A stretch of 33,560 nucleotides of DNA from Dehalococcoidia bacterium. Its GTDB lineage: Bacteria > Chloroflexota > Dehalococcoidia > Dehalococcoidales > UBA3254. A program made the translations under genes and the position numbers. Under the pieces are notes generated by a model. It saw only the letters and a program-made list of their open reading frames with translations. It did no database searches and was not told where the DNA came from. Every line of letters starts with the position of its first letter. The stretch's first letter is position 1. Positions 6,099-33,560 of this stretch are shown piece after piece. The stretch lies in NCBI GenBank assembly GCA_025361145.1, contig JANYAV010000024.1, forward strand, positions 1 through 33,560, given 5' to 3'.

Positions 6099-6119
6099 TG
6101 ATAAGATATTTATAAAAGC

Positions 6120-14277: not shown

Positions 14278-14472
14278 TGGTTCACCTCCCTTGATAATCC
14301 TGGCGACTCCCTATTTTTCTTACTTAATTGATTATTAACTAAGATAACCTAACAATCACAGAAATTCAACAGCTAAACTGTTCTGGTGTCCTAAAACAAA
14401 ACCCCAGATACAATTATGATACTTTACAGGGGATGTTACACCCATAACTTATGCGGACTTCGGCAAACGAAA

Positions 14473-14506
14473 AACCCCTGGCCGTTTTATTGACCAGGGG
14501 TTAATT
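14473..14506 (-). terminator. Terminator of the ancestral tRNA-Lys gene (bidirectional)
   Basis: AACCCCTGG (14473-14481) pairs perfectly with 14494-14502 around a 12-nt loop. On the minus strand it sits about 20 bp beyond the 3' end of the tRNA remnant, the usual place for a tRNA terminator; T/A runs on both sides could make it bidirectional. Confidence 0.75.
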
Positions 14507-14523
14507 TTAGTCTTGTTTTCAAC

Positions 14524-14568
14524 TGAGCCGCCTGGGAATCGAACCCAGAACCTACTGATTAAGAGTCA
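14524..14568 (-). tRNA. tRNA-Lys(CUU) 3' half; putative attachment-site remnant
   Basis: On the minus strand the sequence reads an anticodon arm with loop CTCTTAA (anticodon CUU, lysine), then a variable loop, a perfect T arm (CTGGG, TTCGATT, CCCAG), the 3' acceptor strand GCGGCTC and discriminator A. Toward the 5' side the match stops within the anticodon stem: the base at position 27 no longer pairs, and the following 60 bases show no D arm or 5' acceptor strand. The fragment cannot form a tRNA. It is what remains on one side when an integrase inserts an element into the 3' part of a tRNA gene. The intact tRNA would then lie at the other, right-hand end, which is not in the window. The rest of the 14,332-14,638 gap holds only the terminator just listed. 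Confidence 0.75.
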
Positions 14569-14638
14569 GAGAAAGTTAGAACAAGCATTCTAATCTAACC
14601 CCTTCCTCCTTCTTGTTTAATTTATTTTTCTACTTTTA

Positions 14639-15007
14639 TTATACTCGCTGCACGGGTCGTTTAGGGGAAAGAGTTCTGCGGAGTTGTTTTCGAGTGGATG
14701 ATCTAACAGGAACTGTTTCCTGGGGCGCGAGGGGCTCGGTTTTCATTGCAATCTTTAATCCAAGAACAGCCAGCATACTGCCCAACGCCTCCAGAGTAAG
14801 ATTGGTCTCTCCGCTTTCTATTTGAGCAATGTAGGGCTGTTTAACTCCCAGCTTATCCGCCAGTTCCTTTTGAGTTAAATCGGCTGCCTGACGGGCATGG
14901 AATAAAGCCAGGCCATATTCCGATTTGGCACATTCAGATCCGTAGGATTTAGCGAACGCAGGATCCTTAAGTTCCTCGATTAAATCTCTCTCAAGTTGAT
15001 CAAGCAT
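14639..15007 (-). CDS. HTH antitoxin, HigA-like
   Basis: A 122-residue protein with an XRE-type helix-turn-helix in the middle: ARQAADLTQKELADKLGVKQ, then PYIAQIESGETNLTLEAL. The N-terminal 25 residues (LERDLIEELKDPAFAKSY) resemble the lead-in of HigA-type antitoxins; the C-terminus is basic and disordered. It starts one base after the toxin stop, the toxin-first order typical of higBA modules. Such antitoxins bind the toxin and repress their own promoter. First gene inside the boundary marked by the tRNA remnant. Confidence 0.85.
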   Translation of the reverse strand: MLDQLERDLIEELKDPAFAKSYGSECAKSEYGLALFHARQAADLTQKELADKLGVKQPYIAQIESGETNLTLEALGSMLAVLGLKIAMKTEPLAPQETVPVRSSTRKQLRRTLSPKRPVQRV

Positions 15008-15008
15008 A

Positions 15009-15365
15009 TTATTTGTTCTCCCATTTCAGATATTCATGCAATAATTCACGGGATTTCTGAATTTCCCGTTCGTAATTATTATCTTTATGCCATCCATGTA
15101 AGAGTATAAAGGTTTGGTACTTCAAATTATGATAAACAGCGATTCTCCAACCTAAGGCACTATTCCGCAGTTCATAAAAACCATTGTCTGGTCCTGCGAT
15201 AACATCCATGGATTTGGTCTTAAGTATATCCGGACCGTTTCTTCTCAAGTCATCCAGTTTACGATGAATGTTAGGCTTAATGCTATTGTCTTGAGCAACA
15301 ATCCAGTCACGGGCTGGTTGTTTACCATCTGGTCTTTCATAAGCAATTACTTTATATATTTGCAT
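15009..15365 (-). CDS. RelE/HigB-like toxin (Gp49 family)
   Basis: The 118-residue protein shows the phage Gp49/HigB-like pattern: a short beta-strand lead, ARDWIVAQDNSIKPNIHRKLDDL helices, then FYELRNSALGWRIAVYHN and FILLHGWHKDN near the C-terminus, where the conserved Arg and the strand-end basic residues form the mRNA-cleaving surface of RelE-fold toxins. The role (ribosome-dependent mRNA cleavage, element maintenance or phage abortive response) is inferred from the family. It lies upstream of, and is probably co-transcribed with, the antitoxin. Confidence 0.85.
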   Translation of the reverse strand: MQIYKVIAYERPDGKQPARDWIVAQDNSIKPNIHRKLDDLRRNGPDILKTKSMDVIAGPDNGFYELRNSALGWRIAVYHNLKYQTFILLHGWHKDNNYEREIQKSRELLHEYLKWENK

Positions 15366-15438: not shown

Positions 15439-16056
15439 TTAAGGATATTTGCGATAACTGCCAACAACTTTGGCAATGCCCTGACAATCGGTCATTTTAC
15501 GGGTAGCATAACGGTTCTCCAGCCAATAACCATCGCCAATGATTTTGAGCTTGGCGACATGGAGCTGGTCGTCGCAAATACAGACCACCTTATCGCCGTT
15601 GTCGATTTGACTGTCATGGTCGACGATAACGTAGTCGCCATCATGTAATTCCGGCTCCAGGCAATCACCGGAGACGCGATAGGCTTTGATTGAAAAGGGG
15701 GCGGTCACCGGCCGATCCACATAAATATGGTCGATAGCCTCGACAGGGTCGCCGGCATGGACCCGGGCATAATCGGAGTAGACGTTGATTTTAAGGGGCG
15801 GATTGACAGCATGAGTTTCCCAGTCTTCTGTAGAACCAGTGGGGCTGATGCCATAAATATACATTATCAACTCTTGCGTGGTTTTATTTAAGCCCACGGC
15901 GAATTTGTTAATTAGCTCTTCTGAATAGTTTGGGTAATGGCCCAACTCTATGCGGGAGATATAAGAGCGTTTAATGCCGGATTTTTTCTCTAAATCCTCC
16001 TGCGTGATATGCAGCTCTTCTCTTAATCGTTTGACCTTGATACCCCAATTTTCCAT
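15439..16056 (-). CDS. CI/LexA-like phage repressor with Cys in place of the S24 Ser
   Basis: A 205-residue repressor: XRE helix-turn-helix at residues 5-60 (LREELHITQEDLEKKSGIKR, SYISRIELG) and a C-terminal S24 peptidase-type domain from about 115. The nucleophile motif, normally GDSM, reads VSGDCLEPELHDGDYV, with Cys132 (codon TGC) at the Ser position; the Lys partner is probably Lys169 in HVAKLKI. Self-cleavage by Cys is possible but unproven; loss of SOS-type inactivation is the alternative. GAGGG precedes the ATG. It faces the Cro-like gene across a 113-bp control region, the arrangement of a lysis-lysogeny switch, and probably controls the genes to its right. Confidence 0.88.
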   Translation of the reverse strand: MENWGIKVKRLREELHITQEDLEKKSGIKRSYISRIELGHYPNYSEELINKFAVGLNKTTQELIMYIYGISPTGSTEDWETHAVNPPLKINVYSDYARVHAGDPVEAIDHIYVDRPVTAPFSIKAYRVSGDCLEPELHDGDYVIVDHDSQIDNGDKVVCICDDQLHVAKLKIIGDGYWLENRYATRKMTDCQGIAKVVGSYRKYP

Positions 16057-16074: not shown

Positions 16075-16171
16075 ATTGTAGCACTACTGCGACATTTGTC
16101 AATAGTTTTGTTATTTTGAGGCTAATTTGACACTAGACTATTTGTAGTTAGTATGCTACTGTTTGTAGCAT
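16075..16171. promoter_or_regulatory. Divergent repressor/cro control region with operators
   Basis: Leftward promoter on the minus strand: TTGACA (16102-16097), 16-bp spacer, TACAAT (16080-16075). Rightward promoter: TTGACA (16127-16132) with a weak -10 TATGCT at 16152-16157. The half-site GTAGCA occurs at 16078-16083 on the leftward -10, inverted as TGCTAC at 16154-16159, and again at 16165-16170. The last two form a perfect 7-bp dyad (16153-16171) covering the rightward -10 and start codon. This fits repressor and Cro competing for shared operators; binding itself is inferred. Confidence 0.65.
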
Positions 16172-16412
16172 GTTGTTAATAAATAGACTAAAAGACGCGC
16201 AAAAAGCAGAGAATCTGAGTGATGCCAAATTCGCTAAAAAGATCGGGGTTCATCGCACCACCTGGATACGGATTAAGACCAAACAGGTAGGCATCTCGAC
16301 CCGTGTCTTACAAAACATCATCACGGTTTTCCCTGGATTTAAAAAGGAAGTGGATATATTTTTATCCTGTAATGCTACTGTCAGTAGTAAGGAAGGAGGA
16401 ATAATTAAATGA
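16170..16412 (+). CDS. Cro-like helix-turn-helix protein
   Basis: An 80-residue DNA-binding protein with the helix-turn-helix LSDAKFAKKIGVHRTTWIRI followed by KQVGISTRVLQNIITVFP. It is divergent from the repressor and its start codon lies inside the rightmost operator. No ribosome site precedes the ATG, and the predicted transcription start is only a few bases upstream, so the message may be leaderless. Its stop overlaps the next start (ATGA), suggesting coupled translation. A Cro-type role is inferred from position and fold. Confidence 0.75.
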   Translation: MLLINRLKDAQKAENLSDAKFAKKIGVHRTTWIRIKTKQVGISTRVLQNIITVFPGFKKEVDIFLSCNATVSSKEGGIIK

Positions 16413-17034: not shown

Positions 17035-17892
17035 ATGGCCAAAGGCAGAATGCTACACAAGAAAATCTCCAATAGCAAGCGGGTCAATGACCTGCCGGTG
17101 GAAGCGGCACTGCTTTACACCTGGCTGATCTCCCATCTCGACTATAACGGGGTGTTTTACGGCAGCGCACAAATGATTAAAAGCCTGGTATTTCCGCGCC
17201 GAGAATGCAGCGTTAAGCAGGTTGAAAACTGGTTGCGGGCTATGGAAACGGCAAAAAATGATGACGGAATGACGCTGGTAAAACGATTTAAGGTTAATGA
17301 GGAACTTTTTTTATGGATGCCAGGGTTTAAGGGAGAGCAGCCGGGACTGCGCGCGGAAAGGGAGGCAAGTGACTTCCCAAACCCACCCCAAATGGATAAA
17401 ACGAGCCAGAATAATGATACAAATGACGGAAATTTGCGGGAAAAAGACGGGAATAATACTGAAAAACAGCGGCAAATTGTGGGAGTCATCCCGGAAAAAG
17501 ACGGCGAAAAGTCCGCACAAGGACAAGGTCAAGTACAAGGGGAAATACAAGAAGAACTAGAAGAAGAAAAAGAAACCAGTAGTTGTTGTTCAGAAAATGA
17601 CAAGTTGAGCTCCCAGGAAATCGCCGAGGTGGCCAAGGCCTTTGAGGAAAACGTGTGCAAGCTGACCTCAGGGATCGCGGTCGAATTGAACGAAGCCCTG
17701 CAATACTACAGCAAACAGGAACTTTTAGACGCGATAAAAGCCTGCGCCCTGCAAAACAAGCACACGATGGCCTATTTCCTGGGGGTACTGCGGAACAAAA
17801 ACGGCGCCCACTGCGACAATGGGCCGCCGAAATACAAAGTTGATCCGGATAAATATATCAAAGGCAAATACGGACATATGGTCCAACGTTAA
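17035..17892 (+). CDS. DnaD-like phage replication protein
   Basis: The 285-residue protein has an N-terminal winged-helix-like domain (GRMLHKKISNSKRVNDLPVE then ALLYTWLISHLDYNGVF) as in phage replisome organisers. A disordered, charged linker spans about 115-190 and includes a run of Glu. A C-terminal DnaD/DnaB2-type domain follows (AVELNEALQYYSKQELLDAI, TMAYFLGVLRNK). Such proteins bind the phage origin and recruit helicase loaders. No helicase loader gene follows within the window. The gene starts after a purine-rich leader and is part of the rightward early region. Its presence supports a phage or phage-satellite origin of this block. Confidence 0.75.
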   Translation: MAKGRMLHKKISNSKRVNDLPVEAALLYTWLISHLDYNGVFYGSAQMIKSLVFPRRECSVKQVENWLRAMETAKNDDGMTLVKRFKVNEELFLWMPGFKGEQPGLRAEREASDFPNPPQMDKTSQNNDTNDGNLREKDGNNTEKQRQIVGVIPEKDGEKSAQGQGQVQGEIQEELEEEKETSSCCSENDKLSSQEIAEVAKAFEENVCKLTSGIAVELNEALQYYSKQELLDAIKACALQNKHTMAYFLGVLRNKNGAHCDNGPPKYKVDPDKYIKGKYGHMVQR

Positions 17893-18414: not shown

Positions 18415-19722
18415 ATGAACATAAGAATCGGTGAAATTTTTAGAGTAGAATGGCCAGGAAACCGAAACAAAAACGAGGTTCCTGGTAAGTACCGATCTTA
18501 CTATGAATTGACTCAAGGAAAACATACAGTTGGCGCTGATATCAACAAGGGTATATGGGCCTATAAAGAAATACGAGAAACTAATACCAAATTTAATAGG
18601 CGACCGGCAATACTTTTACACAGTAACCCATGCAAAGAAGCTTCACTGGACGTACCCTGGATAGACATCATCGAACCCGATAACGGCTCAGCCATTTATA
18701 ACGGAGATAATAGAAAACTATCAACACCTTCAACTGCCAGGGGGAATGACCTCCTTATTAATCTATCCCGTTTCTACAATACTCCAGAACTCCGTATTTA
18801 TGCACCCCCAATTCTATTATTTACTCAACACATAACAAATGGAAACCGAAGAGGATACAGACAATTCTCTGGCTATGGAATACCTACAAAATACGTTTTA
18901 CAATCACAATCCGCAAAAGATATATATTTTACAAATCTAGTTCTTGAAATCGCATTATTCAATCTGGACAAAGAGAATGATTCATTCGATTGGAAATGGA
19001 TAGATGCCCGACGGGATAGTTCAACGACAGCGGAGGCGGCTTTACGTTTAGCGCCATCAGCTTGGAAACTATGGGTTTTACAAGGTGATGATGTTATAGA
19101 GCATTGTCGGAGAAAAGTTGCCAGAAATAGAGTGGTTTGCTCAAAGGACCAACTTCCTGAAACAAACGGTGACATTGAATTACTGGAAAAGTTGGTCGCA
19201 GCATTTCGCCCAAACCGTTATGCATTCGAAGGTTTAGCCGCACTAATAGCACAAAGAGTGATTGGCAACAATTGTGTGCGTGGTTGGGTCACTAAACGCT
19301 CAGGCGACGGTGGTGTCGACTTCGTATGCCGCCTGGATGTTGGCACAGGTCTTAGCCGGTCATCCATGGTGGTTTTGGGCCAAGCAAAATGCACTGGAAT
19401 TAAAACAGCGGTTAGTGGTCACGATTTAGCCAGGGTGGTTGCGCGTTTGCAAAGGGGCTGGCTGGGAGTATACGTCACAACCGGAATATTTTCTGAACCT
19501 GCCCAAGAAGAATTATATGCCGATAGATATCCAATTGTACTAATAAGTGGAAAGCGTGTAGTGCAGGAAATAAAACTAATAATGAATACTGAAAACATCG
19601 GCTTTGAAGAATTGTTATCGCGGGAAAGTAAATGGTACCAAGAACATATAGAACCAGTTGACGCGGGACGCATCGTGGATCAAACCATGTTTGGAACTGA
19701 ATTTACTCCCGAGACCGATTAG
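18415..19722 (+). CDS. Mrr-like restriction endonuclease
   Basis: The C-terminal third is an Mrr_cat nuclease domain: FEGLAALIAQRVIG helix, then KRSGDGGVDF with Asp298 and the catalytic Asp302, then VVLGQAKC with Gln323 and Lys325 (the D...QxK form of PD-(D/E)XK), then GVYVTTGIFSEPAQEE and PIVLISGKRVVQ, the usual family ending. The first ~260 residues match no domain I know; they begin MNIRIGEIFRVEWPGNRN and may be the DNA- or partner-recognition region. It lies 13 bp before the methyltransferase gene. It could cut unmodified DNA as a type II partner, or modified DNA as classical type IV Mrr enzymes do; the neighbouring methyltransferase favours the first. No clear ribosome site precedes the ATG. 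Confidence 0.85.
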   Translation: MNIRIGEIFRVEWPGNRNKNEVPGKYRSYYELTQGKHTVGADINKGIWAYKEIRETNTKFNRRPAILLHSNPCKEASLDVPWIDIIEPDNGSAIYNGDNRKLSTPSTARGNDLLINLSRFYNTPELRIYAPPILLFTQHITNGNRRGYRQFSGYGIPTKYVLQSQSAKDIYFTNLVLEIALFNLDKENDSFDWKWIDARRDSSTTAEAALRLAPSAWKLWVLQGDDVIEHCRRKVARNRVVCSKDQLPETNGDIELLEKLVAAFRPNRYAFEGLAALIAQRVIGNNCVRGWVTKRSGDGGVDFVCRLDVGTGLSRSSMVVLGQAKCTGIKTAVSGHDLARVVARLQRGWLGVYVTTGIFSEPAQEELYADRYPIVLISGKRVVQEIKLIMNTENIGFEELLSRESKWYQEHIEPVDAGRIVDQTMFGTEFTPETD

Positions 19723-19735
19723 ATGGAATGATAAT

Positions 19736-20716
19736 ATGATACAAAATAAAAAACAGATAAAGACGCTAGATTTATTTTCAGGTTGCGGTGGGAGCAGCTG
19801 CGGAGCAAATGAATCCGGAGTAAACATCGTTGCGGCTGTTGATGCTTGGCCGTTGGCAAGAGATACATATATTGAAAATTTTAAAAATATCAGTTTTTAT
19901 TGTGATTTTATCGAGAATATTAATCCAGCCGATATCGAAAATAAAGTTGGGAAAATTGATTTGATTCTGGCATCCCCTGAATGCACCAGCCACACATGTG
20001 CTCGAGGAAACAACCCAGGATCAGAAAGTAGCCGCATGACAGCCTTTGAGGTATTACGCTTCGCCCGGATTTTGAAACCAAGGTGGATCGTTATTGAGAA
20101 CGTAGTGCATATGCGTAAATGGAAAAGGTATAAAGAACTTATAGATACACTGGAAAAAGAACTCAAATACCAAGTTAGAGTGCAAACGCTCACCGCTTCG
20201 GCATTTGGTGTACCACAATCGCGGAGACGGTTATTCATTACGTGTGATAAAAAAGAAATGCCACCCGTTATCACGCCTAGTATTAGGGCACGTCGGAAAA
20301 CTGTTAAAGACATTATAGAAAACGATGCAGATTATCCGTTTTCACAACTAGTTACTGAAAAGCGGGCAAAGGCAACACTCGAAAGGGCTGAACGTGCATT
20401 TTCCGAAGTAGGAAAAGATAAATCGTTTCTGCTTGTCTATTACGGAAGCGATGCCGCTGGCGGATGGCAGTCAATTGACAAACCTCTGCGTACCGTCACA
20501 ACGGTCGATAGATTTGCATATGTAAAACCCAGTGATAATGGACATTTAATGCGTATGCTCCAAGTCCCAGAGATAAAAGCGGCAATGGGATTCCCTTCTC
20601 AATTTAAAATGCCCCATGGAACCAGACGGGAAAAAATTCATATGTTAGGTAATGCTGTATGCCCGCCAGTGATGGAACATGTAATTCGTAGTCTTACACA
20701 TAAACCACAAGAGTAA
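19736..20716 (+). CDS. DNA (cytosine-5) methyltransferase
   Basis: Transfers methyl from SAM to C5 of cytosine, presumably marking self DNA. Start 19736 gives MIQNKKQIKTLDLFSGCGG; a longer frame starts within the preceding gene. Motifs in order: I (DLFSGCGGSSCGANESG), IV (ASPECTSHT, catalytic Cys83; PEC where PPC is usual), VI (IENV), VIII (QSRRRLFIT), a short target-recognition region, and IX/X ending LGNAVCPPVMEHVI. At 326 residues it is a compact Dcm-type enzyme. The recognition sequence cannot be read from the protein. It lies between the Mrr-like nuclease and the twin-ATPase gene. Confidence 0.93.
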   Translation: MIQNKKQIKTLDLFSGCGGSSCGANESGVNIVAAVDAWPLARDTYIENFKNISFYCDFIENINPADIENKVGKIDLILASPECTSHTCARGNNPGSESSRMTAFEVLRFARILKPRWIVIENVVHMRKWKRYKELIDTLEKELKYQVRVQTLTASAFGVPQSRRRLFITCDKKEMPPVITPSIRARRKTVKDIIENDADYPFSQLVTEKRAKATLERAERAFSEVGKDKSFLLVYYGSDAAGGWQSIDKPLRTVTTVDRFAYVKPSDNGHLMRMLQVPEIKAAMGFPSQFKMPHGTRREKIHMLGNAVCPPVMEHVIRSLTHKPQE

Positions 20717-20805
20717 TGAAGCATATTGGATTTAGCAAATTTTCGTGCCAAATTTAAGGAATGGCAACAGTTAACGGGAATGAATTATGCCGGTCAAGGA
20801 TAAAA

Positions 20806-22950
20806 ATGAACGATTCGACCAAAGTAATAGTATTTAAACCCAGAGCACGAATGCTTCTTTTACTCGGCGATCAACTCATTAAGGACCCCGGCATTGCCGT
20901 TTTTGAACTAGTGAAGAATGCTTTTGATGCTGATTCCCCAGATGTCACTGTTACAATGTCACATATCACTGATCAAAAATTGGGAACTATTGTGGTAGAA
21001 GATTCCGGCACCGGAATGGATTATAAAACAGTCACAGAAGTCTGGATGGAACCCGGAACCGATTACCGTGCGCGTCAAAGAGCTAGAGGAGAACGAACTC
21101 CAAAATATCACCGTCTACCGCTTGGTGAAAAAGGCGTAGGAAGATTTGCAGTTCATAAGCTGGGAAATGAAATAAGGCTGATTACGCGAAAACTGAACGC
21201 GCCAGAGGTAGTGGTGGAGATAGACTGGACGGAATACTCCCAACAAAAGTACTTGGATCAAATTCCTGTCAGAGTTTTCGAAAGAACCCCCAAAGTATTT
21301 CTGGGAGAGTCAACCGGTACAAAAATAGAGATTTCTGATCTACGCAATGATTGGAGTCGCGGTATGGTCCGCGATTTGGCAAGGGCCATCAATTCCATCT
21401 GTTCGCCCTTTGAAAATATCAAAAACAAAAAAGAAAAAAAGACTACTAAAAAGGACAATCATGAATTTACGGCAAAATTAGTCTTAACCGAAAATCAGGA
21501 CTGGCTCGAGGGAATATTAAACACAGAGAAGGTTCTAGAGTACGCACTTTTTAAAGCCAGCTGTGAAATAACTGGGACGACTTTGAAATACGACTACGAA
21601 TTCCGGCCGTACCCTGCAATGGATGCCATAAAGGCAAGAATAGTTAAGCAAAATATCATGCAGTTATCTCAAAATAAAAAGGAAAATATCGATATCGATG
21701 TCATCGAAAAGCAAATTGGCCCTATACATTTAGATTTTTATATATATGACAGAGAAGCTAAGATTTTGTCTCTGGGGGTGGCGGACAAGCAAGGATTAAA
21801 GGAGTTCCTTGACAAGAACGGAGGTGTGAGAGTCTATAGAGAAGGTATTCGGGTTTACGACTACGGTGAACCTGGAAACGATTGGCTGGATCTCGGAGCA
21901 AAAAGGGTAAACATCCCCACAAAAAATATCAGCAACAATCTGGTAATTGGTGCCGTATCCTTACATTACGATAAAAATATTATTTTTAATCCTGATAAAA
22001 ATTTGGGCTTAATTGAAAAGACTAATCGAGAAGGATTTGTAGATAATGCAGCGTTTCGTGCATTACAGTGGGCTGTTGTTAGTGCTTTCACCCAAATAAC
22101 TCAAGAAAGAAATAAAGATAAGCTGCGAATCAGAAACGCCTACAACAGCAGCAAGATCAAAGAGCCAGTCATTGAAGATTTAACCGATCTGAAGAGCTTG
22201 ATTGAAAAAAAAGGATTAGAAGATGAATTAGGCCCTTATATTGACAGAATTGCAGCAGATTTCATAGCTATTAAGGAGAGATTTTTAACCAGTGCCAGCA
22301 CGGGATTGAGTCTTTCAACCGTTATCCATGAAGTAGAAAAAGGCGTACAAGAACTCAGCAGAGCCGTTGAAGAGGACCGAGCTACTCCCCGAATTAAACG
22401 CCTCGCAAGACATTTAGCAGAATTAATAGAGGGTTTTGCCTCATTGATCAGAAGATCCGGAATGACACGGGAACAAGCAAAGATCATGATCGACCAAGCA
22501 AGGTTCAATACCGAGTTAAGGCTCAAAGTACATGGAATTACATTAGTAACCAATTTTGACCAGGGCGATTTCGAGGTTAAATGTAGCCGTCGTTTGACAA
22601 TTGCTACTCTGATGAACCTGATAGACAACTCCATCTGGTGGCTCGAAAATAAATGGGGAGAGTCGAAAAAAAAGAAACGCATATATATTGGCACTTCAAA
22701 GGAATTTTCGGACGGACCAGCTATTGTAATAGCAGACAACGGTCCAGGATTTATGGACCCTCCAGAATATATGGTAGAACCATTTATGAGTAGGAAACCG
22801 GATGGAATGGGACTTGGGCTTCACATTGCTGATCAAGTCATGAGAGGACAAAAAGGCAGATTAGCATTCCCAGACAAAGGGGACGTCTCGCTGCCAACCG
22901 AATTTGATGGAGCTGTGGTAGCTCTAGTGTTTGGAGGGAATAACAGATGA
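20806..22950 (+). CDS. Twin-GHKL ATPase with histidine-kinase-like C-terminus
   Basis: A 714-residue protein with two ATP-binding GHKL domains. The N-terminal one is Hsp90/MutL-like: Glu34, Asn38 and Asp41 in FELVKNAFDAD, DSGTGM (Asp66-Met71), and GEKGVGRFAVHKLG from Gly107. The C-terminal one is kinase-like: NLIDNSIWWLE (Asn604, Asn608), DNGPGF (Asp644-Phe649), and GMGLGLHIADQV (Gly667-Val678). Between them is a helical stretch with VIHEVEKG (His508-Glu509), placed where the DHp phospho-accepting His-Glu of histidine kinases would be. I chose ATG 20806 because AAGGA lies 6 bases upstream; a frame from 20761 also exists. It overlaps the receiver-like gene by 4 bp (ATGA). Role inferred: infection sensor or signalling ATPase. 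Confidence 0.82.
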   Translation: MNDSTKVIVFKPRARMLLLLGDQLIKDPGIAVFELVKNAFDADSPDVTVTMSHITDQKLGTIVVEDSGTGMDYKTVTEVWMEPGTDYRARQRARGERTPKYHRLPLGEKGVGRFAVHKLGNEIRLITRKLNAPEVVVEIDWTEYSQQKYLDQIPVRVFERTPKVFLGESTGTKIEISDLRNDWSRGMVRDLARAINSICSPFENIKNKKEKKTTKKDNHEFTAKLVLTENQDWLEGILNTEKVLEYALFKASCEITGTTLKYDYEFRPYPAMDAIKARIVKQNIMQLSQNKKENIDIDVIEKQIGPIHLDFYIYDREAKILSLGVADKQGLKEFLDKNGGVRVYREGIRVYDYGEPGNDWLDLGAKRVNIPTKNISNNLVIGAVSLHYDKNIIFNPDKNLGLIEKTNREGFVDNAAFRALQWAVVSAFTQITQERNKDKLRIRNAYNSSKIKEPVIEDLTDLKSLIEKKGLEDELGPYIDRIAADFIAIKERFLTSASTGLSLSTVIHEVEKGVQELSRAVEEDRATPRIKRLARHLAELIEGFASLIRRSGMTREQAKIMIDQARFNTELRLKVHGITLVTNFDQGDFEVKCSRRLTIATLMNLIDNSIWWLENKWGESKKKKRIYIGTSKEFSDGPAIVIADNGPGFMDPPEYMVEPFMSRKPDGMGLGLHIADQVMRGQKGRLAFPDKGDVSLPTEFDGAVVALVFGGNNR

Positions 22951-24296
22951 AAGGACTTGGCGGCGTGAGAGTGATTGTTGTTGACGATAAAGAAGACGAA
23001 GCACTACCCATACTCAAAGACCTTGCCCAAAGAGGCATTCCTTCGGCTTTTTTTCTTGGAGGGTCAAAAGCCCCCGTTCCTGTCAGGCAGAACCCCGGAA
23101 TCAGATTAGCTATTCTCGATATGGACTTGGGTTGGATCGGAGCAACTGAAGCGGGAAAAGCCTCTTCACTCGCGAAATTCATCAGCAATATTTTTAGCCC
23201 TGAAAATGGACCATATGGTATATTGGCTTGGACAAGTTATCCTGAAATAGTTGAACATCTCAAAAAATACTTATATGCAGAAACATCATTTCCTCGCCCA
23301 ATTTTCACTTTGTGTCTCACCAAGGATGAATGTTCAATAAAAGGAAAGATAAGTGCCAAACTTTTATCCGAAAAGCTTGATCCACGGCTCGCCGATTTCA
23401 CTCCGTTAATGCTGATGGAAACATGGGAGGAACAAAGCTTTTGCGCAGCGACGGAGGTTACAAATACTCTTTCTAAAATGGCCGACTGTGATGCGCCTGA
23501 TCTTGATTCCTGGTCAACTGCATGGAATAAAAATTTCCTCAACTTAATGAATATTTTGGCAAAAGCCGAAATGGAACAAAACCTTGATTTAAATAACTGC
23601 CTCTCTGGATTCTACAATATTCTCAATCCATTGCATGCCGACAAAATGGAAACTAAATCCGCAACGCTCGTAAAGACTCATAAAAAAAAGGCAAAAGAAA
23701 TTATCGCAGCCGACGGTAAAAACGATCTCAATCAAAATGCGAATTTAAATACGATGTTACACCTTGGCTTTGAACAACTGAATCAATATTCACCAGGCAA
23801 TTTGTACATATTGTCAAAAGCGAAGATCCCTCCAGAATTAGCCAAAATAGATGGTATTCTGACAGAATTGTTCATACCAGTAAAAGACAAAACTGGTAAA
23901 GTGAAGCAAGAAGAAACGGAAATATTATTTACAAAAATGAAAACGCAAATAAAATTGATCGCGCTGGAAATTAGCGCTGCTTGCGATTATGCCCAGAAAC
24001 ATATTTATTTAGCTCGTTTTCTTGGAGGAATTCTAATACCGGAAACTCTAATCAAACATATCAGGCATAATGATTTATTCCTGAATAACTTCGGCCCGAT
24101 ATGCTTAAATATTGAAGGCTCACCAAGCGTGTACTACGTATGTTTGAGCGCGAGACATTTTGTAACACTTGATATTGAAAAAGCACAGAAACTTAGAGCA
24201 GTCGCCAAAATCAGATCTCAGGCTTTAGCAGTATTGCAAGATTGGTTTGCGCAACATGCCGGAAGACCCGGTATGGTATGGATTGGCACGAAATAG
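22947..24296 (+). CDS. Receiver-like domain protein, partner of the twin-GHKL ATPase
   Basis: The N-terminal ~130 residues resemble a response-regulator receiver: VIVVDDKEDE with Asp13 and Asp14, AILDMDLG with candidate phospho-acceptor Asp58 (or Asp60), AWTSYPE with Thr96, and TKDE with Lys126. The order acidic pair, Asp, Thr, Lys is that of CheY-like domains, with extra length between elements. The remaining ~320 residues are mostly helical, contain a Lys-rich segment near 235-250, and match no output domain I know; there is no helix-turn-helix. Its 4-bp overlap with the kinase-like gene implies a stoichiometric pair. It could be the effector or adaptor that passes the ATPase signal to the nuclease modules. 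Phosphotransfer is inference. Confidence 0.65.
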   Translation: MKGLGGVRVIVVDDKEDEALPILKDLAQRGIPSAFFLGGSKAPVPVRQNPGIRLAILDMDLGWIGATEAGKASSLAKFISNIFSPENGPYGILAWTSYPEIVEHLKKYLYAETSFPRPIFTLCLTKDECSIKGKISAKLLSEKLDPRLADFTPLMLMETWEEQSFCAATEVTNTLSKMADCDAPDLDSWSTAWNKNFLNLMNILAKAEMEQNLDLNNCLSGFYNILNPLHADKMETKSATLVKTHKKKAKEIIAADGKNDLNQNANLNTMLHLGFEQLNQYSPGNLYILSKAKIPPELAKIDGILTELFIPVKDKTGKVKQEETEILFTKMKTQIKLIALEISAACDYAQKHIYLARFLGGILIPETLIKHIRHNDLFLNNFGPICLNIEGSPSVYYVCLSARHFVTLDIEKAQKLRAVAKIRSQALAVLQDWFAQHAGRPGMVWIGTK

Positions 24297-24337
24297 ACTA
24301 TAGCGTTAATCAGCACCCGAACAGGTAATAGAGTTCC

Positions 24338-24368
24338 GACAGAATTTACATCGCGAGCTTATTCTGTC
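24338..24368 (+). promoter_or_regulatory. Inverted repeat in the gap between the two defence units
   Basis: GACAGAAT (24338-24345) and ATTCTGTC (24361-24368) are perfect 8-bp arms with a 15-nt spacer, in the only sizeable gap (117 bp) of the locus. A TTGACA follows at 24375-24380 but no good -10. The repeat may be an operator, an mRNA-processing hairpin or a weak terminator, and suggests the second unit can be expressed separately. Confidence 0.4.
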
Positions 24369-24413
24369 TAGGTTTTGACAGCAGCTTAACGACGCGGACA
24401 TCTAAAAATCTAA

Positions 24414-25901
24414 ATGATTGATTATTCTAAATTAGAAACTGCAAAGGTCGAGCCGGAAGCTTCCTCTACAATTGAGACTTACCGAGCCGTTGGCTACAAC
24501 TTAGAAACAGCTATAGCGGATATTATAGATAATTCTATTTCAGCCGGGGCTGGTAACATTTGGGTTGACTATCTGTGGGATGGGGCTGCAACTACGATTT
24601 TCATCACAGATGATGGCCATGGTATGAACAATAAAGAATTGATACAAGCTATGAGGCTTGGTAGCCGGAATCCTCTAGAGAAAAGAGAGCGAAAAGATTT
24701 AGGACGATTTGGTCTCGGCTTAAAAACGGCCTCTTTTTCCCAATGCAGAAAGTTTTGTGTAATTTCCAAGAAAATAGGATCCGAGCCCGTTTACTGGACA
24801 TGGGATTTGGACTATGTAAACCAAAGCAAAACATGGGATATCTTAAAATATAAACCAGTTAACAAGAATGCGTTCAAGAAATTGAATGAAGTTGAGTCAG
24901 GAACTGCAGTAATCTGGTGGGACATAGATAGACTTACGGAAAACTCTTCCGCTTCTGACGAAAAGGCAAAAGGGAGATTTCTTGAGGTAATGGAGTCTTC
25001 AAAGAATCACATAGGGATGGTATTTCACAGGTTTATTGGGAATGGGCTTAATATATATTTTCGCAATAGGAAAATTGCTGCCTGGGACCCTTTCATGACT
25101 GGCACAAACGGGATACAAACCAGACCTGAAACAAAAATTGCAAAAGGTAATATTACGATTCAGGGAAGTGTATTACCGCATAGGTCGAAATTAACACCCG
25201 AAGAATACAATTATGGAAAGGGACCCAAAGATAGCTGGACCAATCATCAAGGCTTTTATGTATACAGAAATAACAGATTGTTAGTAGCCGGAGATTGGCT
25301 AGGAATGTTCAAGAAAGAAACCCATTATGATTTATGCAGAATAAAACTGGATATTACGAATGATTTTGACAGTGAATGGCAAATTGATATTAAAAAATCT
25401 CAGGCAATTCCACCGGCTGCACAACGACAAATAATATTGGTATTAGCAAAAGAAGCTCGAGACTTAGCCGTGGAGGTCTATCGTCACAGAGGTAAAGTTA
25501 TTAAAAGGACATTTTCTAAAGACAGTTTTCTTCCCATTTGGGAGGAATATGTCAGGCATAGCAAGCGCTTTTATAGACTAAATAGACACCATCCGATAGT
25601 GCAGGATTTATTGAACAAGGGAGATGATTCAACAAGAAATATTGAAGAAGCTCTCAAGTTTATCGAAGAAACCGTTCCAGTCCCGTTAATCATGATTAGC
25701 GAAAACCAAAACGAGATTAGTTCTGGGAAACCATTTGAAGGGATAAATCATGATCCTATTTTGCGCATCATGAAAGAAATGTACAAGCAAATGATAAATA
25801 ATGGCTATAGTTCAAAAGATGCAAAAGCGAGAATTGCTAACATAGAACCATTTGATTCATACGTGGAGTATCTTGAGCAATTGGAGGATATTATTGCATA
25901 G
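24414..25901 (+). CDS. MORC/MutL-like GHKL ATPase (paraMORC; Mza-type)
   Basis: A 495-residue protein with an N-terminal GHKL ATPase: IADIIDNSISAGA (Asp36, Asp39, Asn40), DDGHGM (Asp66-Met71), and LGRFGLGLKTASFSQC from about residue 96, followed by an S5-like transducer region (QGFYVYRNNRLLVAGDWL). This pattern is the bacterial paraMORC group linked to restriction systems by Iyer, Abhiman and Aravind. The usual N-box Glu is Asp36, apparently normal for the group. ATP-driven dimer closure could clamp DNA, by analogy to MutL and MORC. The gene overlaps the Z1 gene by 8 bp and corresponds to the MutL-like component of Mza systems. Confidence 0.88.
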   Translation: MIDYSKLETAKVEPEASSTIETYRAVGYNLETAIADIIDNSISAGAGNIWVDYLWDGAATTIFITDDGHGMNNKELIQAMRLGSRNPLEKRERKDLGRFGLGLKTASFSQCRKFCVISKKIGSEPVYWTWDLDYVNQSKTWDILKYKPVNKNAFKKLNEVESGTAVIWWDIDRLTENSSASDEKAKGRFLEVMESSKNHIGMVFHRFIGNGLNIYFRNRKIAAWDPFMTGTNGIQTRPETKIAKGNITIQGSVLPHRSKLTPEEYNYGKGPKDSWTNHQGFYVYRNNRLLVAGDWLGMFKKETHYDLCRIKLDITNDFDSEWQIDIKKSQAIPPAAQRQIILVLAKEARDLAVEVYRHRGKVIKRTFSKDSFLPIWEEYVRHSKRFYRLNRHHPIVQDLLNKGDDSTRNIEEALKFIEETVPVPLIMISENQNEISSGKPFEGINHDPILRIMKEMYKQMINNGYSSKDAKARIANIEPFDSYVEYLEQLEDIIA

Positions 25902-28659
25902 CGAGGCTATCAGGATCATAAGAATAATGTTAGGGAGTAATATTTCGGTAACAAGGGATGAAATAGAAGCCAAAGTGAAACAGGTTTTGGAAATGCCTGA
26001 TTACTCAAATTGTGACAGAGATCAGCTAATTAGAGAAATAGAAAGTATTTACAACGTCAGGGTTGATGAATATAGAATTATCGAAAAGAAAGAAAGACGA
26101 CTACCATGGCTAAATGGTAAAAGAACCGCAATAGACTGGAGTTTCTGGCCCCGTTATAAAGGCTATTTGCAGGATGAAAAAAATTTTGCTCCCGATACAT
26201 TGAACAGGCTAAACCATCTTACAGACAGAATTCTCGACGGCCTTTTTGATCCAACCGCTAATATAAAAGTAGATAAAAAAGGACTGGTGGTTGGAGAAGT
26301 ACAGTCAGGGAAAACGTCAAATTACACTGGCCTGATTTGTAAAGCGGCAGATTCCGGGTTTAAGCTCATAATTGTCCTGGCCGGAATTCATAATAACCTT
26401 AGAAGTCAAACTCAATTGAGACTAGACGAAGGTTTTCTTGGTTTTGACACACAACTTACACGAGCATTTAATCAGAATAATATTAGAATTGGGGTTGGAC
26501 GGATCAATCGTAATGGGGTTGCACATTCCCTGACTTCTAGCCTGGATAGTGGTGATTTCACTCAAGGATCTGCTAATAACTGCGGTTTCAATTTTGACAC
26601 AAACGAACCCATAATCGCCGTTGTTAAAAAGAACCCATATGTTCTGGACAGATTATATAAATGGCTTAATAATCAAGCTACGCAACAGCCCAATGGGACC
26701 AAAATCATAAGTAACAAATCATTATTGTTGATCGACGACGAAGCCGATCACTCTTCAATTAACGTTAATAAGACTGGAATGGGTCCAACGACAATAAACA
26801 GGCAAATCAGAGATATCCTGAGACTTTTTAGAAAATCAGGTTATATCGGATATACTGCAACCCCATTCGCAAATGTTTTCATACCGCTTGATGAAGATGA
26901 CCTTTTTCCTCGTGACTTTATAATAAATATTCCCCCACCTTCAAATTATATCGGCCCGGAAAAAGTATTCGGGTTCCATGTTATGAAAGAAGAGGACGAA
27001 ACACCAAATAATGTTTTGCCGATTGTAAACCGGATAGAGGATTATTTAGATTTTGTTCCGGACAAGCACAAGCAACACGATCAACTTCCTTCCTCTCTTC
27101 CCGATTCTCTAAAGATGGCTATTCGTTGTTTCATTATTACTTGTGCGGTTCGGCGACTAAGAGGACAAACTTCGGTCCACAACTCTATGCTCATTCATGT
27201 TTCGCTGTTCCAACGCTGGCAAAAACACATTAGTGAACTCGTCCAGAAGCAATATGATTATTATAGGATGGGCATAGACCAAAATGATCCAGAAATTTTG
27301 GAAATGTTCAAAACCACTTTTGAAAAAGATCAATTAAATTATAGATCTTATATTAACGTATCCAGCCAGATACTTAATTCCAAATTAGCGAATATTGACC
27401 CATCGATTAAGGTCCACTCTTGGGATGATTTGATTCCTCATTTAAATGAAGCGGCTGCGAGGATAGAGGTCAGGGAAATACACGGGGGCTCGAGAGAAGC
27501 ATTGGACTATTTTGACCACAAAGATGGACTTTCTGTCATCACGATCGGTGGAAATAAACTGTCGAGAGGGCTTACGCTAGAAGGACTATCTATAAGTTAT
27601 TATTTGCGTTCTTCCAAGATGTACGACACTCTGATGCAAATGGGACGATGGTTTGGTTATCACCCCGGATATGTAGATCTTTGCAGACTTTTTACAAGCC
27701 AGGAATTAAATGAACACTTTTGCCATATTACTCGTGCGTCGGAAGAGCTACGAGAAGAATTTGATTATATGGCTGATGTTGCCGGCTCGACGCCGGAACA
27801 ATATGCTCTGAAAGTAAGAACTCATCCAGGCGTTCTGCAGATTTCCGCCACCAACAAATTACGGTCAGCAGTAAACGTGCAATTGAGCTGGGCAGGACGG
27901 TTAGTCGAATCATATGAGCTAATGAAGAATCCGCAAACTATTTCCAATAACTTGAATCACACTCTCAATTATTTTTCAGCCATAGGAAAAGATTACGAAT
28001 TCAAAAAGGGCAATTTTCTATGGTATGACATCCCCGCAACGCAGGTCATGGAATTTCTAAACGGTATTCGCACGCCCGAAAATTTAAAAGCCTATAATCC
28101 ACAAAATCTAATAAGATTTATTACCGCCCAGCTGCCAAACGGAGAACTAACACACTGGCGAGTTGCTTTAATGTCTAAAAATAATTCACGCATAGATATA
28201 CCCCTTCAGATTCGAGGCGAGCTAGTCAATATTGGATGTTGGAGGCGAACCCAGGACCCAAACAATTCCAATGATGACATATATTATCTAAAAAAATCGC
28301 ATATCTTAAGCCCAGATGACGAGTTCATAGACCTAACGCCACAAGAAAATGAGCGCGCATTGGAATTGACCAGAGAGAATCGTCTAAAGAAAAACAAAGA
28401 GGGCGAGCCAGACTATCCAAATGGTGAAATCGTCCGTAATGCGATCAGAGATGCAAAAAATCCACTATTATTAATCTATCTACTTGACCCTTTATACGCA
28501 GAAATGCCAAGCGATTCTAACCCTTTTGTAGGATTTGCAATTAGTTTTCCGGGCAGCAAACACCAAGAATATATAACCTATGCAGTACATGAGCAGTTAT
28601 TGAAATACCTTGATTTCGAAGACAATGAAGAGGATCTGGAAGAAATTGATGAAAATTGA
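25894..28659 (+). CDS. Z1-domain superfamily II ATPase/helicase (Mza-type)
   Basis: A ~921-residue protein. The helicase core has Walker A GEVQSGKT (Lys140), Walker B LLIDDEADHS (Asp281-Glu283-Ala-Asp285), GYTATPFANVF (motif III-like), and the Z1 signature GGNKLSRGLTLEGL from about 552 with QMGRWFGYHPGYVDLCRL from about 582. Z1 proteins are found with GHKL ATPases and nucleases in defence loci; ATP-driven DNA tracking or remodelling is inferred. I chose TTG at 25894 because GGAGG lies 6 bases upstream and it overlaps the previous stop by 8 bp; ATG 25927 is the alternative. The last ~25 residues are very acidic. The end overlaps the nuclease gene. Confidence 0.92.
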   Translation: MHSEAIRIIRIMLGSNISVTRDEIEAKVKQVLEMPDYSNCDRDQLIREIESIYNVRVDEYRIIEKKERRLPWLNGKRTAIDWSFWPRYKGYLQDEKNFAPDTLNRLNHLTDRILDGLFDPTANIKVDKKGLVVGEVQSGKTSNYTGLICKAADSGFKLIIVLAGIHNNLRSQTQLRLDEGFLGFDTQLTRAFNQNNIRIGVGRINRNGVAHSLTSSLDSGDFTQGSANNCGFNFDTNEPIIAVVKKNPYVLDRLYKWLNNQATQQPNGTKIISNKSLLLIDDEADHSSINVNKTGMGPTTINRQIRDILRLFRKSGYIGYTATPFANVFIPLDEDDLFPRDFIINIPPPSNYIGPEKVFGFHVMKEEDETPNNVLPIVNRIEDYLDFVPDKHKQHDQLPSSLPDSLKMAIRCFIITCAVRRLRGQTSVHNSMLIHVSLFQRWQKHISELVQKQYDYYRMGIDQNDPEILEMFKTTFEKDQLNYRSYINVSSQILNSKLANIDPSIKVHSWDDLIPHLNEAAARIEVREIHGGSREALDYFDHKDGLSVITIGGNKLSRGLTLEGLSISYYLRSSKMYDTLMQMGRWFGYHPGYVDLCRLFTSQELNEHFCHITRASEELREEFDYMADVAGSTPEQYALKVRTHPGVLQISATNKLRSAVNVQLSWAGRLVESYELMKNPQTISNNLNHTLNYFSAIGKDYEFKKGNFLWYDIPATQVMEFLNGIRTPENLKAYNPQNLIRFITAQLPNGELTHWRVALMSKNNSRIDIPLQIRGELVNIGCWRRTQDPNNSNDDIYYLKKSHILSPDDEFIDLTPQENERALELTRENRLKKNKEGEPDYPNGEIVRNAIRDAKNPLLLIYLLDPLYAEMPSDSNPFVGFAISFPGSKHQEYITYAVHEQLLKYLDFEDNEEDLEEIDEN

Positions 28660-29656
28660 ATCTGTCTGGAAAGAACTCGAAGCCGATGAATCAATTTTAT
28701 ACTCTGGATTGCTTTACAAACGTTTTTCAGGGGAAATAAAACCGGACGTTTATGTGGCTTTAAAAGCGCCTGAGAAAATGCGTTGCATAGCAGCTCGCAT
28801 AAACAATTTCACAAATTCAGAGGTAGAACCACTAAATAGCCTTCGAGACATTAAAATCGAAACTATTCCGGATCAAGAACATCCTGGTAAAAAGTTCCTA
28901 CTCATTCTTTTACTTGATAACCAGTTTAAAGATATTTTTGCTACTCTATGTGAAGATTTGATGAATAACGTTGCAGAAATTGGCGACGAAAATATGCTGA
29001 TTAGCGAATTATTAGCAAGACTTTTTAAATGGCAAGCAATATTTGAACAATATAAATTGCCAGGTTTATCTGAAGAATCGCAAATGGGATTATTTGGCGA
29101 ATTATTTTTCATGAGAAAATTCCTTCACAATTCAGACGACTTCGCATTTTGTCTCAACGCTTGGAAAGGCCCTGAAAACGCTGTTCAAGATTTTCAACAT
29201 TCGAACTGGGCTATTGAAGTTAAAGCCACTCACGGTAAAAACCATCAAAAAATCCAAATTACAAGTGAGCGTCAACTGGACACGGATATAGTAACCAACA
29301 TCTATTTATATCATTTGTCTTTAGATATTCGAGAAAACAAAGGTGAAACGTTAAATGACATTGTCGATGACGTTAAAGATATACTCAAGGATAATAGCGT
29401 CGCATTTACGGCATTTAAGCTAAAACTATTGAGCGCAGGTTACTTCGAAAATCATCGCGTATACTATACAGACACCGGTTACAACATAAGGCTGGAAAGA
29501 ATCTTTTTTGTAACCGGAAGTTTTCCAAGGATTACGGAAAGGCAAATAGCAGCTGGCGTAGGTGATGTGAGATATTCAATTATTATTGGAGACGATGTTT
29601 CATGGAAAATATCTGAAGAGGAATTATTTTCCCAAGCGAGGAAGAAAAGTGCTTGA
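28649..29656 (+). CDS. PD-(D/E)XK nuclease, DUF4420 family (Mza-type)
   Basis: A 335-residue protein of the DUF4420 family. The nuclease core shows MGLFGELFFM (conserved Glu), VQDF with Asp181, and AIEVKAT with Glu190 and Lys192, a complete D...ExK metal site. It is followed by a lineage-typical pattern (ITSERQLD, then YLYHLSL). All catalytic residues are present, so active DNA cleavage is expected; its trigger is unknown. ATG 28649 fits the family N-terminus and overlaps the Z1 gene by 11 bp; a frame back to 28610 lacks a ribosome site. The stop overlaps the AIPR gene by 8 bp. Probably the effector of the second unit. Confidence 0.88.
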   Translation: MKIESVWKELEADESILYSGLLYKRFSGEIKPDVYVALKAPEKMRCIAARINNFTNSEVEPLNSLRDIKIETIPDQEHPGKKFLLILLLDNQFKDIFATLCEDLMNNVAEIGDENMLISELLARLFKWQAIFEQYKLPGLSEESQMGLFGELFFMRKFLHNSDDFAFCLNAWKGPENAVQDFQHSNWAIEVKATHGKNHQKIQITSERQLDTDIVTNIYLYHLSLDIRENKGETLNDIVDDVKDILKDNSVAFTAFKLKLLSAGYFENHRVYYTDTGYNIRLERIFFVTGSFPRITERQIAAGVGDVRYSIIIGDDVSWKISEEELFSQARKKSA

Positions 29657-31760
29657 GGCGCAAGAAATAGGAATTTTCTTTAGTGAACTTCAAGAGAATA
29701 TTAATGCCTTACTGGTTTCAGCAGAAGAAGGGGCGACACCTGAACAAATATTTACCGAAACCTCTCTAGCACTACTGGACCAAGCGGGTGAAACTGAGAA
29801 TTTCCGGGTATGTTACGACGAAAAAACCAGTAAACGGGGTATCGAACATAAAATAAATGGCTACGCTCTATACGAAAACTACGAGACCCTGGACCTTTTC
29901 GTAACGATTTACAACAATGGACAAACGATCACTTCGATTCAAAAGAGTGAGATAGACAAGGCGTTCAGTCGAGCTATAAAATTCTTTGAAAATACAATGC
30001 ATAAAGGTTATGCCGATCAGATTGAGGAGAGCTCAGAGATATTTGATATCGCCAACACTCTCGCTAAATCTCCTGAAGTCAAGGAATATTTAACACGAAT
30101 AAATATATTCATACTCACTAATGGACAAGTAAAAGCAAATATTGATATAAGCAAGACGTTTACAGACTACAAAATTTTCTTGCGGGTAGTTGATATTGAC
30201 TATTTATACAATTTATCAGATAAGTCTCGGATTCCTATCGAAATTGATTTCGCTGAATTAGGTGTACCTTTACCATGTGTCACTACAAATGTTGAGCTTG
30301 AAGGATACCAATCATATCTCGCCATTGTTCCAGGTTTTATCCTAGCCGACATTTATGAAAAATACGGACCTAGATTACTGGAACAAAATGTGAGATCTTT
30401 TCTTCAATTTACTGGAAATATCAATCGTGGAATTCGCGATACAATTCGCAGGGAGCCCCAAATGTTCCTTGCATTCAATAACGGAATTTCCGTGACCGCA
30501 GACGAAGTCAGGTTTGTCACATTACCTAATGGCGAAGGCCGCGCCATAGCATACGTAAAGGATTTTCAAATCGTCAACGGGGGACAGACTACTGCAGCCA
30601 TATATCACACTTGTAAAAAATATTCGGCTAACATTTCCCAAGTATACGTCCAATTAAAATTGACTACGATAAAGAATAAGGAAAACGTCAATCAAACAGT
30701 TGCAAAGATAGCGGAATATGCAAATACACAAAACAAAATCTCAGCTTCCGATTTAAGTTCTAACGGCCAGGGTCTGATTAAACTTGAAATGATCTCCAGG
30801 TCAACCTGGGCCCCGCCCAAAGATGGCCAATCAAATCAAACCAGATGGTTCTTTGAGCGAGCCAGAGGGCAATTTAAAAACGAACGTCTGCGTCAGGGAT
30901 TTACGCCATCGAAGAGAAAAGCTTTTGATTTGATGAACCCTTTAAGGCAAATGTTATCTAAAGAAATGCTGGCCAAGTATGTTAATTGTTATCAAGAAAT
31001 CAACAAGGGTAATAAAACTGTGATCGGGCCTCATACAGTTGTCAGAGGTAATCAAAAAAATTACGCCCAATTTATAAGTCACAACTTAGTGAATGAGCCT
31101 GACGAAAATTATTTTCAAGAGATAATTGCCAAAGCTATTATGTTTAAAACCGCAGAAAAAGTATATGGAATTGCGCCTAACTCAATAGGTGATATGCGTT
31201 ATATTACAGTGCCTTATTCAATCGCATGGCTTACCCTCAATTTGAATTATAAGGTTGACCTTTTCAAAATCTGGAAAGATCAAAATATTAGTCCTGAATT
31301 TGAAAATATTCTTTATCAAATCATGAACGATGTCGAAGTATTTATCAAAAATAATGCACCAGGCTCGCTTTATGGTGAATGGGCAAAAAAGGAGGATTGC
31401 TGGGCGTCTCTTAAGAAGCAGGCATTCAATTTTAACCTCGATAAGATCAATAATTATATCGTTAATGAAAACTCAACACACCAGACAAAGGCTACTAATG
31501 TAGATCAACGAATAAAAGGCCAGATTCTAGGTGAAATTGAATCGTTAGGCGCTGAAAACTGGAGGAAAATCTACATTTGGTGTAGCAATTCCGGACAGAT
31601 ATCTCAATTTTACACAGATGTTGCCCATACCGTCGGTCGAAAAATTAGGGACAGAATTACCTTGTCCCCAAAAGAAATCTATTCTGCTCATTTACTATTA
31701 GAAGAAATTAGCAAAAAAACCTCATTGCTTCAGTCGATATATGACGAAAGCGAAAACTAA
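29649..31760 (+). CDS. AIPR family protein (abortive phage resistance)
   Basis: A ~703-residue protein whose middle holds the AIPR domain: RDTIRREPQMFLAFNNGIS, DFQIVNGGQTTAAIYHT, VYVQLKLTTI and IAEYANTQNKIS, the strongest conserved stretches of the family. AIPR proteins were named from a plasmid-borne abortive infection gene; their biochemical activity is not established. The GTG start at 29649 is preceded by GAGGAAG and overlaps the DUF4420 stop; the frame back to 29586 runs inside the nuclease gene and lacks a ribosome site. It is the last gene of the tightly coupled MORC-Z1-DUF4420-AIPR run. No strong terminator follows in the next 118 bp. Confidence 0.92.
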   Translation: MLEAQEIGIFFSELQENINALLVSAEEGATPEQIFTETSLALLDQAGETENFRVCYDEKTSKRGIEHKINGYALYENYETLDLFVTIYNNGQTITSIQKSEIDKAFSRAIKFFENTMHKGYADQIEESSEIFDIANTLAKSPEVKEYLTRINIFILTNGQVKANIDISKTFTDYKIFLRVVDIDYLYNLSDKSRIPIEIDFAELGVPLPCVTTNVELEGYQSYLAIVPGFILADIYEKYGPRLLEQNVRSFLQFTGNINRGIRDTIRREPQMFLAFNNGISVTADEVRFVTLPNGEGRAIAYVKDFQIVNGGQTTAAIYHTCKKYSANISQVYVQLKLTTIKNKENVNQTVAKIAEYANTQNKISASDLSSNGQGLIKLEMISRSTWAPPKDGQSNQTRWFFERARGQFKNERLRQGFTPSKRKAFDLMNPLRQMLSKEMLAKYVNCYQEINKGNKTVIGPHTVVRGNQKNYAQFISHNLVNEPDENYFQEIIAKAIMFKTAEKVYGIAPNSIGDMRYITVPYSIAWLTLNLNYKVDLFKIWKDQNISPEFENILYQIMNDVEVFIKNNAPGSLYGEWAKKEDCWASLKKQAFNFNLDKINNYIVNENSTHQTKATNVDQRIKGQILGEIESLGAENWRKIYIWCSNSGQISQFYTDVAHTVGRKIRDRITLSPKEIYSAHLLLEEISKKTSLLQSIYDESEN

Positions 31761-32349: not shown

Positions 32350-33119
32350 TTTCAATCATCTCCATTTATAAATTTAATATTAAAGTATTTAATCTTTTTT
32401 AGAAACCACCACTTTCCGGGAGATATCTTGTGTAAAAATAAAAAACATCAAAAACAATCAAAGAATGCCTTCGTCTCCTACCTCAGCACCTAGACTCCTG
32501 CCAGCTGCATACTAGCCCTGCTGCGGCGCGGCGCCCGAGCAGGCAACCTCTTCACCTGCACAGACAGCGAGGAACAGAGCCTGAAAGGGGGTGCAGCACG
32601 AGCGATGAGAGCAGCGCATATCATTTCTTCAAGCGTAACGGCGCAAGCCCGAAAGCGAGTGCCACCCGCCTGAGCCGAAGGCGAAGGCCGAAGTGAGGAG
32701 TGACTGTGCCATGAAAAAAGGCCTGCGATCCGGGCGCAACCTTCAGCAGGGCAAGCTTTTTTTAATTCCCCCCGGCGGCCACAGCTGGGCCGGGCATTCT
32801 GGCATGTCCGCCGCAGCGGACCACAGCAAAGCCGAATGCCCTGGCATGCCGCCGGAGTCTCCTTTACATGACATCTTTACTCGCACCCGCTGCGTGATGG
32901 GAGCGAGCCCTGGCATGGGATTCGCGCTAGCCCGCCAGGCCGCTTAACAGCACCGAGCGCGCGGTGTGCCGAAGGTGAGTATGACTGGTATGCGTCCGCG
33001 CCGGAAGACTGACCTGAGGCATTACACCTTTGCCTGATACCCTTTCGCGAGTACCCGGGCGGAAAGCAAAAACGGGAATAAAATACAAAACCGCCTGCGA
33101 CTTGCGGAACCCACCAAAG

Positions 33120-33176
33120 CCTGAGGCGGCCGCTACAAACACAAAAGTAACGACCAATAAAAAGCGGCCGCTCAGG
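33120..33176. repeat. Long inverted repeat with GCGGCCGC cores
   Basis: CCTGAGGCGGCCGCT (33120-33134) is matched by AGCGGCCGCTCAGG (33163-33176) with one bulged base, enclosing a 28-nt A-rich loop. It could fold as a strong RNA stem-loop or extrude as a DNA cruciform. Confidence 0.75.
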
Positions 33177-33454
33177 GTGACTGGGTGAGCATCCCTTCTC
33201 ACGACCTAACACGATCTAAATACTTCTTCTGCTGGCACCGGTGTCATGACCCAATGCCGGGAGCGACGGGGGGCCGGCTGGCGGTACGGGGATGAGCGGC
33301 AGGGGAGGAGAGGAGAGGGGAGGAAGCGACGGGACCCAGCCGGATGACACGAGCAGGAGAAGAATGGCCTGAGGGGGGAAGGCGCAGTGGCACAAAGAGT
33401 GTACATTTTAAACAGGCGATGAAGCAACAGCACGAAGGTGATCGATGGGGGGAT

Positions 33455-33524
33455 AGCGCACAATGCCTTTTATGTATGTGGCTTCTTACCCTCTGCCAAA
33501 GGACATAAGACCGCATTGTGCGCT
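33455..33524. repeat. 12-bp perfect inverted repeat near the right end
   Basis: AGCGCACAATGC (33455-33466) and GCATTGTGCGCT (33513-33524) are perfect complements 46 bp apart; the enclosed DNA has a partial second pairing (CTTTTATGT with ACATAAG). Confidence 0.75.
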
Positions 33525-33560
33525 GGCGTGGGTTATCGTTGTTCGGTTTCCCTGGTGTTC

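Follow-up and report, generated by a model that had tools for sequence, protein, structure and literature searches.

The DNA analysed here, hereafter the window, is one whole contig (C19), 33,560 bases long. It belongs to a Dehalococcoidia genome of 25 contigs and 1.70 Mb that is 96% complete, and it carries the 3' part of a lysine tRNA gene on its minus strand. The side to the left of this part is chromosomal and carries the trp operon, whereas phage-type and defence genes follow on the right, and the GC content falls from 0.473 on the left to 0.409 on the right. A T-box leader is found upstream of the trp operon, at 6112-6387. The coordinates of the features around the tRNA are collected in Table 1.

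Table 1. Features at and to both sides of the half tRNA in the window, with strand and basis of assignment
Positions	Strand	Feature	Basis
14465..14523	-	Native 3' trailer and hairpin terminator of tRNA-Lys(CUU), chromosomal side	Conserved in the G001 match; fold
14524..14569	-	Displaced 3' part (nt 28-73) of tRNA-Lys(CUU); very probable attachment-site remnant and left island boundary	46/46 to G001; no ARAGORN call
14570..14638	.	First bases assigned to the element, with inverted repeat TTAGAA...TTCTAA	Hairpin in fold
14639..15365	-	Toxin-antitoxin-like pair: HTH/HipB-like antitoxin (14639-15007) and Gp49/HigB-like toxin (15009-15365)	Pfam HTH_3, Gp49
15439..16056	-	Phage CI-type repressor (HTH and S24 peptidase)	Pfam Peptidase_S24, PHROG repressor
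16170..16412	+	Cro-like regulator, divergent	PHROG transcription regulation matches, E about 2e-5
17035..17892	+	Phage replication initiation protein / DnaD-like helicase loader	PHROGs
18415..31760	+	Defence cargo: AspBHI-type restriction enzyme, 5mC methylase, two HATPase proteins, Z1, DUF4420, AIPR (Mza-like)	Pfam, PADLOC
32480..33560	.	Repeat R, a stretch of 59% GC lacking a clear gene that extends to the end of the contig, short of the island's right end	C7 copy, C3 overlap

Genes to the right of the half tRNA

The original prediction placed a toxin-antitoxin pair, a repressor/cro switch, phage-type genes and a defence locus to the right of the half tRNA, and the Pfam, PHROG and PADLOC matches bear this out. 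The antitoxin also matches NCBIfam couple_hipB, below the cut-off. The CI/Cro-type switch and the replication gene are prophage features; the repressor found no match in IMG/VR, and the replication protein is 38% identical to a protein of an IMG/VR phage contig on which a terminase is encoded as well. No terminase, head or tail genes were recognised among the island genes on C19, on which the island is only partly assembled, and no integrase was found on this contig, which ends at 33560.

The defence block encodes, in order, the AspBHI-type enzyme, the 5mC methylase (best PADLOC match DrmMII), a HATPase protein, a 449-aa protein, and homologues of MzaB, MzaC, MzaD and MzaE. Since the MzaB and MzaD homologues score far below the NCBIfam cut-offs, we regard the system as a divergent, Mza-like one. 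It is followed by a 158-aa protein (31879-32355) without a match in Pfam, PHROG or PADLOC.

The half tRNA and the empty site in a relative

Read on the minus strand from 14569 to 14524, the 46 bp correspond to nt 28-73 of a tRNA-Lys with anticodon CUU (CTGACTCTTAATCAGTAGGTTCTGGGTTCGATTCCCAGGCGGCTCA) and divide into CTGA, CTCTTAA, TCAGT, AGGTT, CTGGG, TTCGATT, CCCAG, GCGGCTC and A. The anticodon loop (CTCTTAA), variable loop, complete T arm, 3' acceptor strand and discriminator base are thus all retained, and CCA is not encoded at the 3' end. ARAGORN called no tRNA in the 33,560-base window. To the left of the fragment, 59 bp of native downstream sequence have been kept, including a terminator hairpin (about 14470-14502) with an 11-bp stem in the fold.

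The single same-genus genome compared, the uncultured Dehalococcoidia MAG G001, carries the whole tRNA and not the half. Its tRNA-Lys(CTT) lies intact at 145-218 of a 3.6-kb contig (C504) and is identical to the half tRNA at 46 of 46 bases. The identity stops exactly at 14569: over the following 40 bases only 6 positions agree, no more than expected by chance, and 14570-14638 has no similarity to the 5' half of the G001 tRNA. The inverted repeat in those bases is possibly an integrase-arm or a terminator site. In the other direction the match runs past the tRNA 3' end into the terminator hairpin (C504 87-191 against window 14465-14569). With 105 bp at 91% and an E value of 2e-36, a chance match of half tRNA and terminator is excluded. 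The 3' half of tRNA-Lys(CUU) beside an intact terminator, as originally read on the minus strand, is therefore confirmed; of the extent first given for it (14524-14568, 45 bp) the start stands, and the end moves to 14569, making 46 bp.

Beyond the tRNA, C504 403-2628 matches a different contig of our genome, C8, at 70450-68287 and about 75%. The order in G001 is uninterrupted, with terminator, tRNA-Lys, 271 bp, response regulator and histidine kinase, and the response regulator on C8 is the orthologue of that in G001 (83% protein identity). As C504 matches both C19 and C8, what is one short stretch in G001 is split here between two contigs. G001 thus offers an uninterrupted site, spanning both flanks, in a relative without the island.

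Which side of the half tRNA is the insert could in principle be turned around, with the fragment being the attachment-site copy of an element on its left and the trp operon belonging to that element. G001 lacks trpA, which leaves it unproven that the trp side is ancestral here; C504 extends only 86 bp to the left of the region matched around the terminator, so that the left flank beyond the terminator could not be matched. However, the native terminator conserved with G001 sits to the left of the half tRNA, and the phage genes and the drop in GC are on the right, which makes a left-side element extremely improbable.

Lysine tRNA genes as integration sites in the same order

A prophage in another genome of the order, G003, is the closest parallel. 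On its contig C6, a CI repressor comes after a tRNA-Lys(CTT) half (149097-149160); this repressor is 39% identical to that of the window and, among 61 genomes, the best match to it. On C22 of the same genome, an intact tRNA-Lys(CTT) is followed 36 bp downstream by a tyrosine integrase and then by head and terminase genes. The two contigs have no joining overlap; we infer that their ends belong to one prophage. The window shares with it the same tRNA, the same half and a homologous CI repressor adjoining the fragment. The two differ in that the fragment starts at nt 30 in G003 and at nt 28 in the window, that the toxin-antitoxin pair and Mza-like cargo are seen in the window only, and that the intact tRNA and integrase at what we take to be the other end of the G003 prophage would fall, here, in an unassembled part.

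G037, G041, G057 and G007 likewise hold lysine tRNA halves with the break in the anticodon loop or next to it (a copy at a contig end in G020 was excluded from the count); in G037 and G041 the half and the intact gene share a contig, 2-3 kb apart. Of the 20 integrase loci examined that most resemble the G003 one, 14 adjoin an intact tRNA gene. This arrangement explains why none was found beside the displaced half here, and by the G003 pattern the integrase and restored tRNA should lie at the island's far right end.

Together with the empty site in G001, the analogous G003 prophage supports the boundary that was originally proposed: 14569/14570 is very probably the att site at which a prophage-like island, inserted into the tRNA-Lys(CUU) gene, begins on the left. 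An intact copy at the right end, as also foreseen, fits both the orientation of the tRNA and the G003 arrangement.

The search for the other end

An intact tRNA-Lys(CUU) is absent from the tRNA calls of the 96%-complete assembly, in which the sole lysine tRNA called is a Lys(TTT) on contig C11. Allowing up to 3 mismatches, the whole genome holds no second copy of the tRNA 3' end besides this Lys(TTT) gene. The 46-bp core has no exact match in IMG/VR and, among the contigs of related genomes, was found in G001 only.

On C11, a tyrosine integrase (112150-113290) lies 54 bp downstream of the intact tRNA-Lys(TTT) and is followed by more cargo genes. It is 41% identical to the integrase at the G003 tRNA-Lys(CTT), and no second 3' half of at least 13 bp is present in C11:72000-112000. 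As a candidate for the enzyme of the window element it was set aside, having its own locus adjoining the intact Lys(TTT) gene.

The missing gene gives room to another account of the half tRNA, namely a decayed pseudogene produced by a deletion, an insertion-sequence event or a rearrangement, with the phage and defence genes arriving separately. A window without an integrase and a bin of this completeness without the intact gene are in line with it, as is the repeat on the other side of the break. The loss of the CUU gene could moreover be tolerable, since tRNA-Lys(UUU) is intact and could cover for it by wobble decoding. Yet the break falls where integrases classically cross over, as do breaks in other genomes of the order, phage early genes begin within about 1 kb of it, and in the G003 prophage the same tRNA half adjoins a homologous repressor. 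Simple decay is thus a very unlikely origin.

For the integration reading, the place to look is C8, which stops 295 bp upstream of the response regulator. The last 141 bases of C8 are common to the ends of C7, C9 and C10 and, read by eye, look like the start of a transposase. The right junction with the regenerated tRNA is expected in the gap beyond this end.

The right end of C19 itself leads elsewhere. It consists of repeat R, of which further copies lie at 1-790 of C3 and 16731-17446 of C7 (87% alike, at the far, right end of C7); R is absent from 60 related genomes and gave only a sub-threshold chance match in Rfam. The start of C3 equals the last 141 bases of C19 exactly, the sole overlap for that end among the in-bin contig ends; C3 holds no tRNA-Lys. 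One could propose that C19 really continues into C3, the right end of an island in tRNA-Arg(CCU), this island and the tRNA-Lys(CUU) island having recombined through R. The low GC of C3:1-21 kb, like that of the window island, would agree with this, and the left boundary would stay an integration junction all the same.

Against such a swap, C3 carries two tRNA-Arg(CCT) 3' halves (18101-18142 and 21081-21122), and from 25.8 kb on holds core genes that flank tRNA-Arg(CCT) in G001. An intact tRNA-Arg(CCT) with a tyrosine integrase is present at 8840-10476 of C7, whose copy of R stops about 63 bp before the C3 start, so that passing from C7 to C3 accounts for the tRNA-Arg layout without an exchange; the tRNA-Arg(CCT) island spanned by the two contigs is most likely a separate, tandem one. 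In addition, nearly all contig-end overlaps are exactly 141, evidently the k-mer length of the assembly, and a shared repeat produces overlaps of that length. Most likely, then, the overlap between C19 and C3 is a repeat effect, and we think recombination between the islands improbable. C3 was set aside as right neighbour of C19, as it appears, probably, to be part of the tRNA-Arg(CCT) island. Somewhat more broadly, that tRNA-Lys(CUU) was lost without being restored, or that the two tRNA islands swapped ends through R and left their boundaries unpaired from their own tRNAs, is to our mind rather unlikely.

Two further observations concern tRNA-Arg(CCT). An integrase remnant adjoins the first of the two halves on C3. 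In G001 (C243, 442-1577), an intact tRNA-Arg(CCT) is preceded by a tyrosine integrase gene on the same strand, with 18 bp between the end of that gene and the tRNA 5' end; this is an unusual side for an integrase.

Proposed route of integration

Under integration into tRNA-Lys(CUU), which we prefer, the enzyme acting on the chromosomal tRNA would have been a tyrosine integrase, with its gene in the unseen right part of the island. Strand exchange would have taken place in the anticodon loop, between the chromosomal gene and an attP that bears the same 3' end of the tRNA; tyrosine integrases indeed prefer a crossover in the anticodon stem/loop (PMC8371274). The original 3' half would thereby have been displaced and left on C19 with its native terminator, on the trp operon side, and at the right end an intact tRNA-Lys(CUU) would have been regenerated, adjoining the integrase and lying upstream of the regulator that is now on C8. 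An insertion-sequence-like repeat between tRNA and regulator may then have broken the assembly. For the window site, we infer both the action of the integrase and the restoration of the tRNA by analogy with the related loci.

Integration targeted at tRNA genes is of an ordinary, well-known mechanism. Genomic islands and prophages in tRNA genes are defined as such in the Islander database (PMC4383910), and the window shares with these islands the split tRNA, the displaced 3' fragment abutting foreign DNA and the empty site in a relative. They also show the regenerated tRNA and an integrase, whereas the window contig ends before that end is reached.

Nearer by, the genomic islands in ssrA (tmRNA) of Dehalococcoides have been attributed to serine recombinases (PMC3146451). 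They occur in the same bacterial class, with an RNA gene as recurrent integration site, and they leave direct repeats. Their integration module with the serine recombinase lies beside attL, however, whereas the window has a tRNA as its site and a tyrosine integrase is expected at the far end.

Biological significance

One end of an island with phage genes and an Mza-like defence locus can be fixed to the base. With the left boundary at the half tRNA, the defence genes would sit on integrated, probably mobile DNA. In this order of the Dehalococcoidia, tRNA-Lys genes serve repeatedly as integration sites for tyrosine integrases, unlike the islands in ssrA described for Dehalococcoides, with their serine recombinases.
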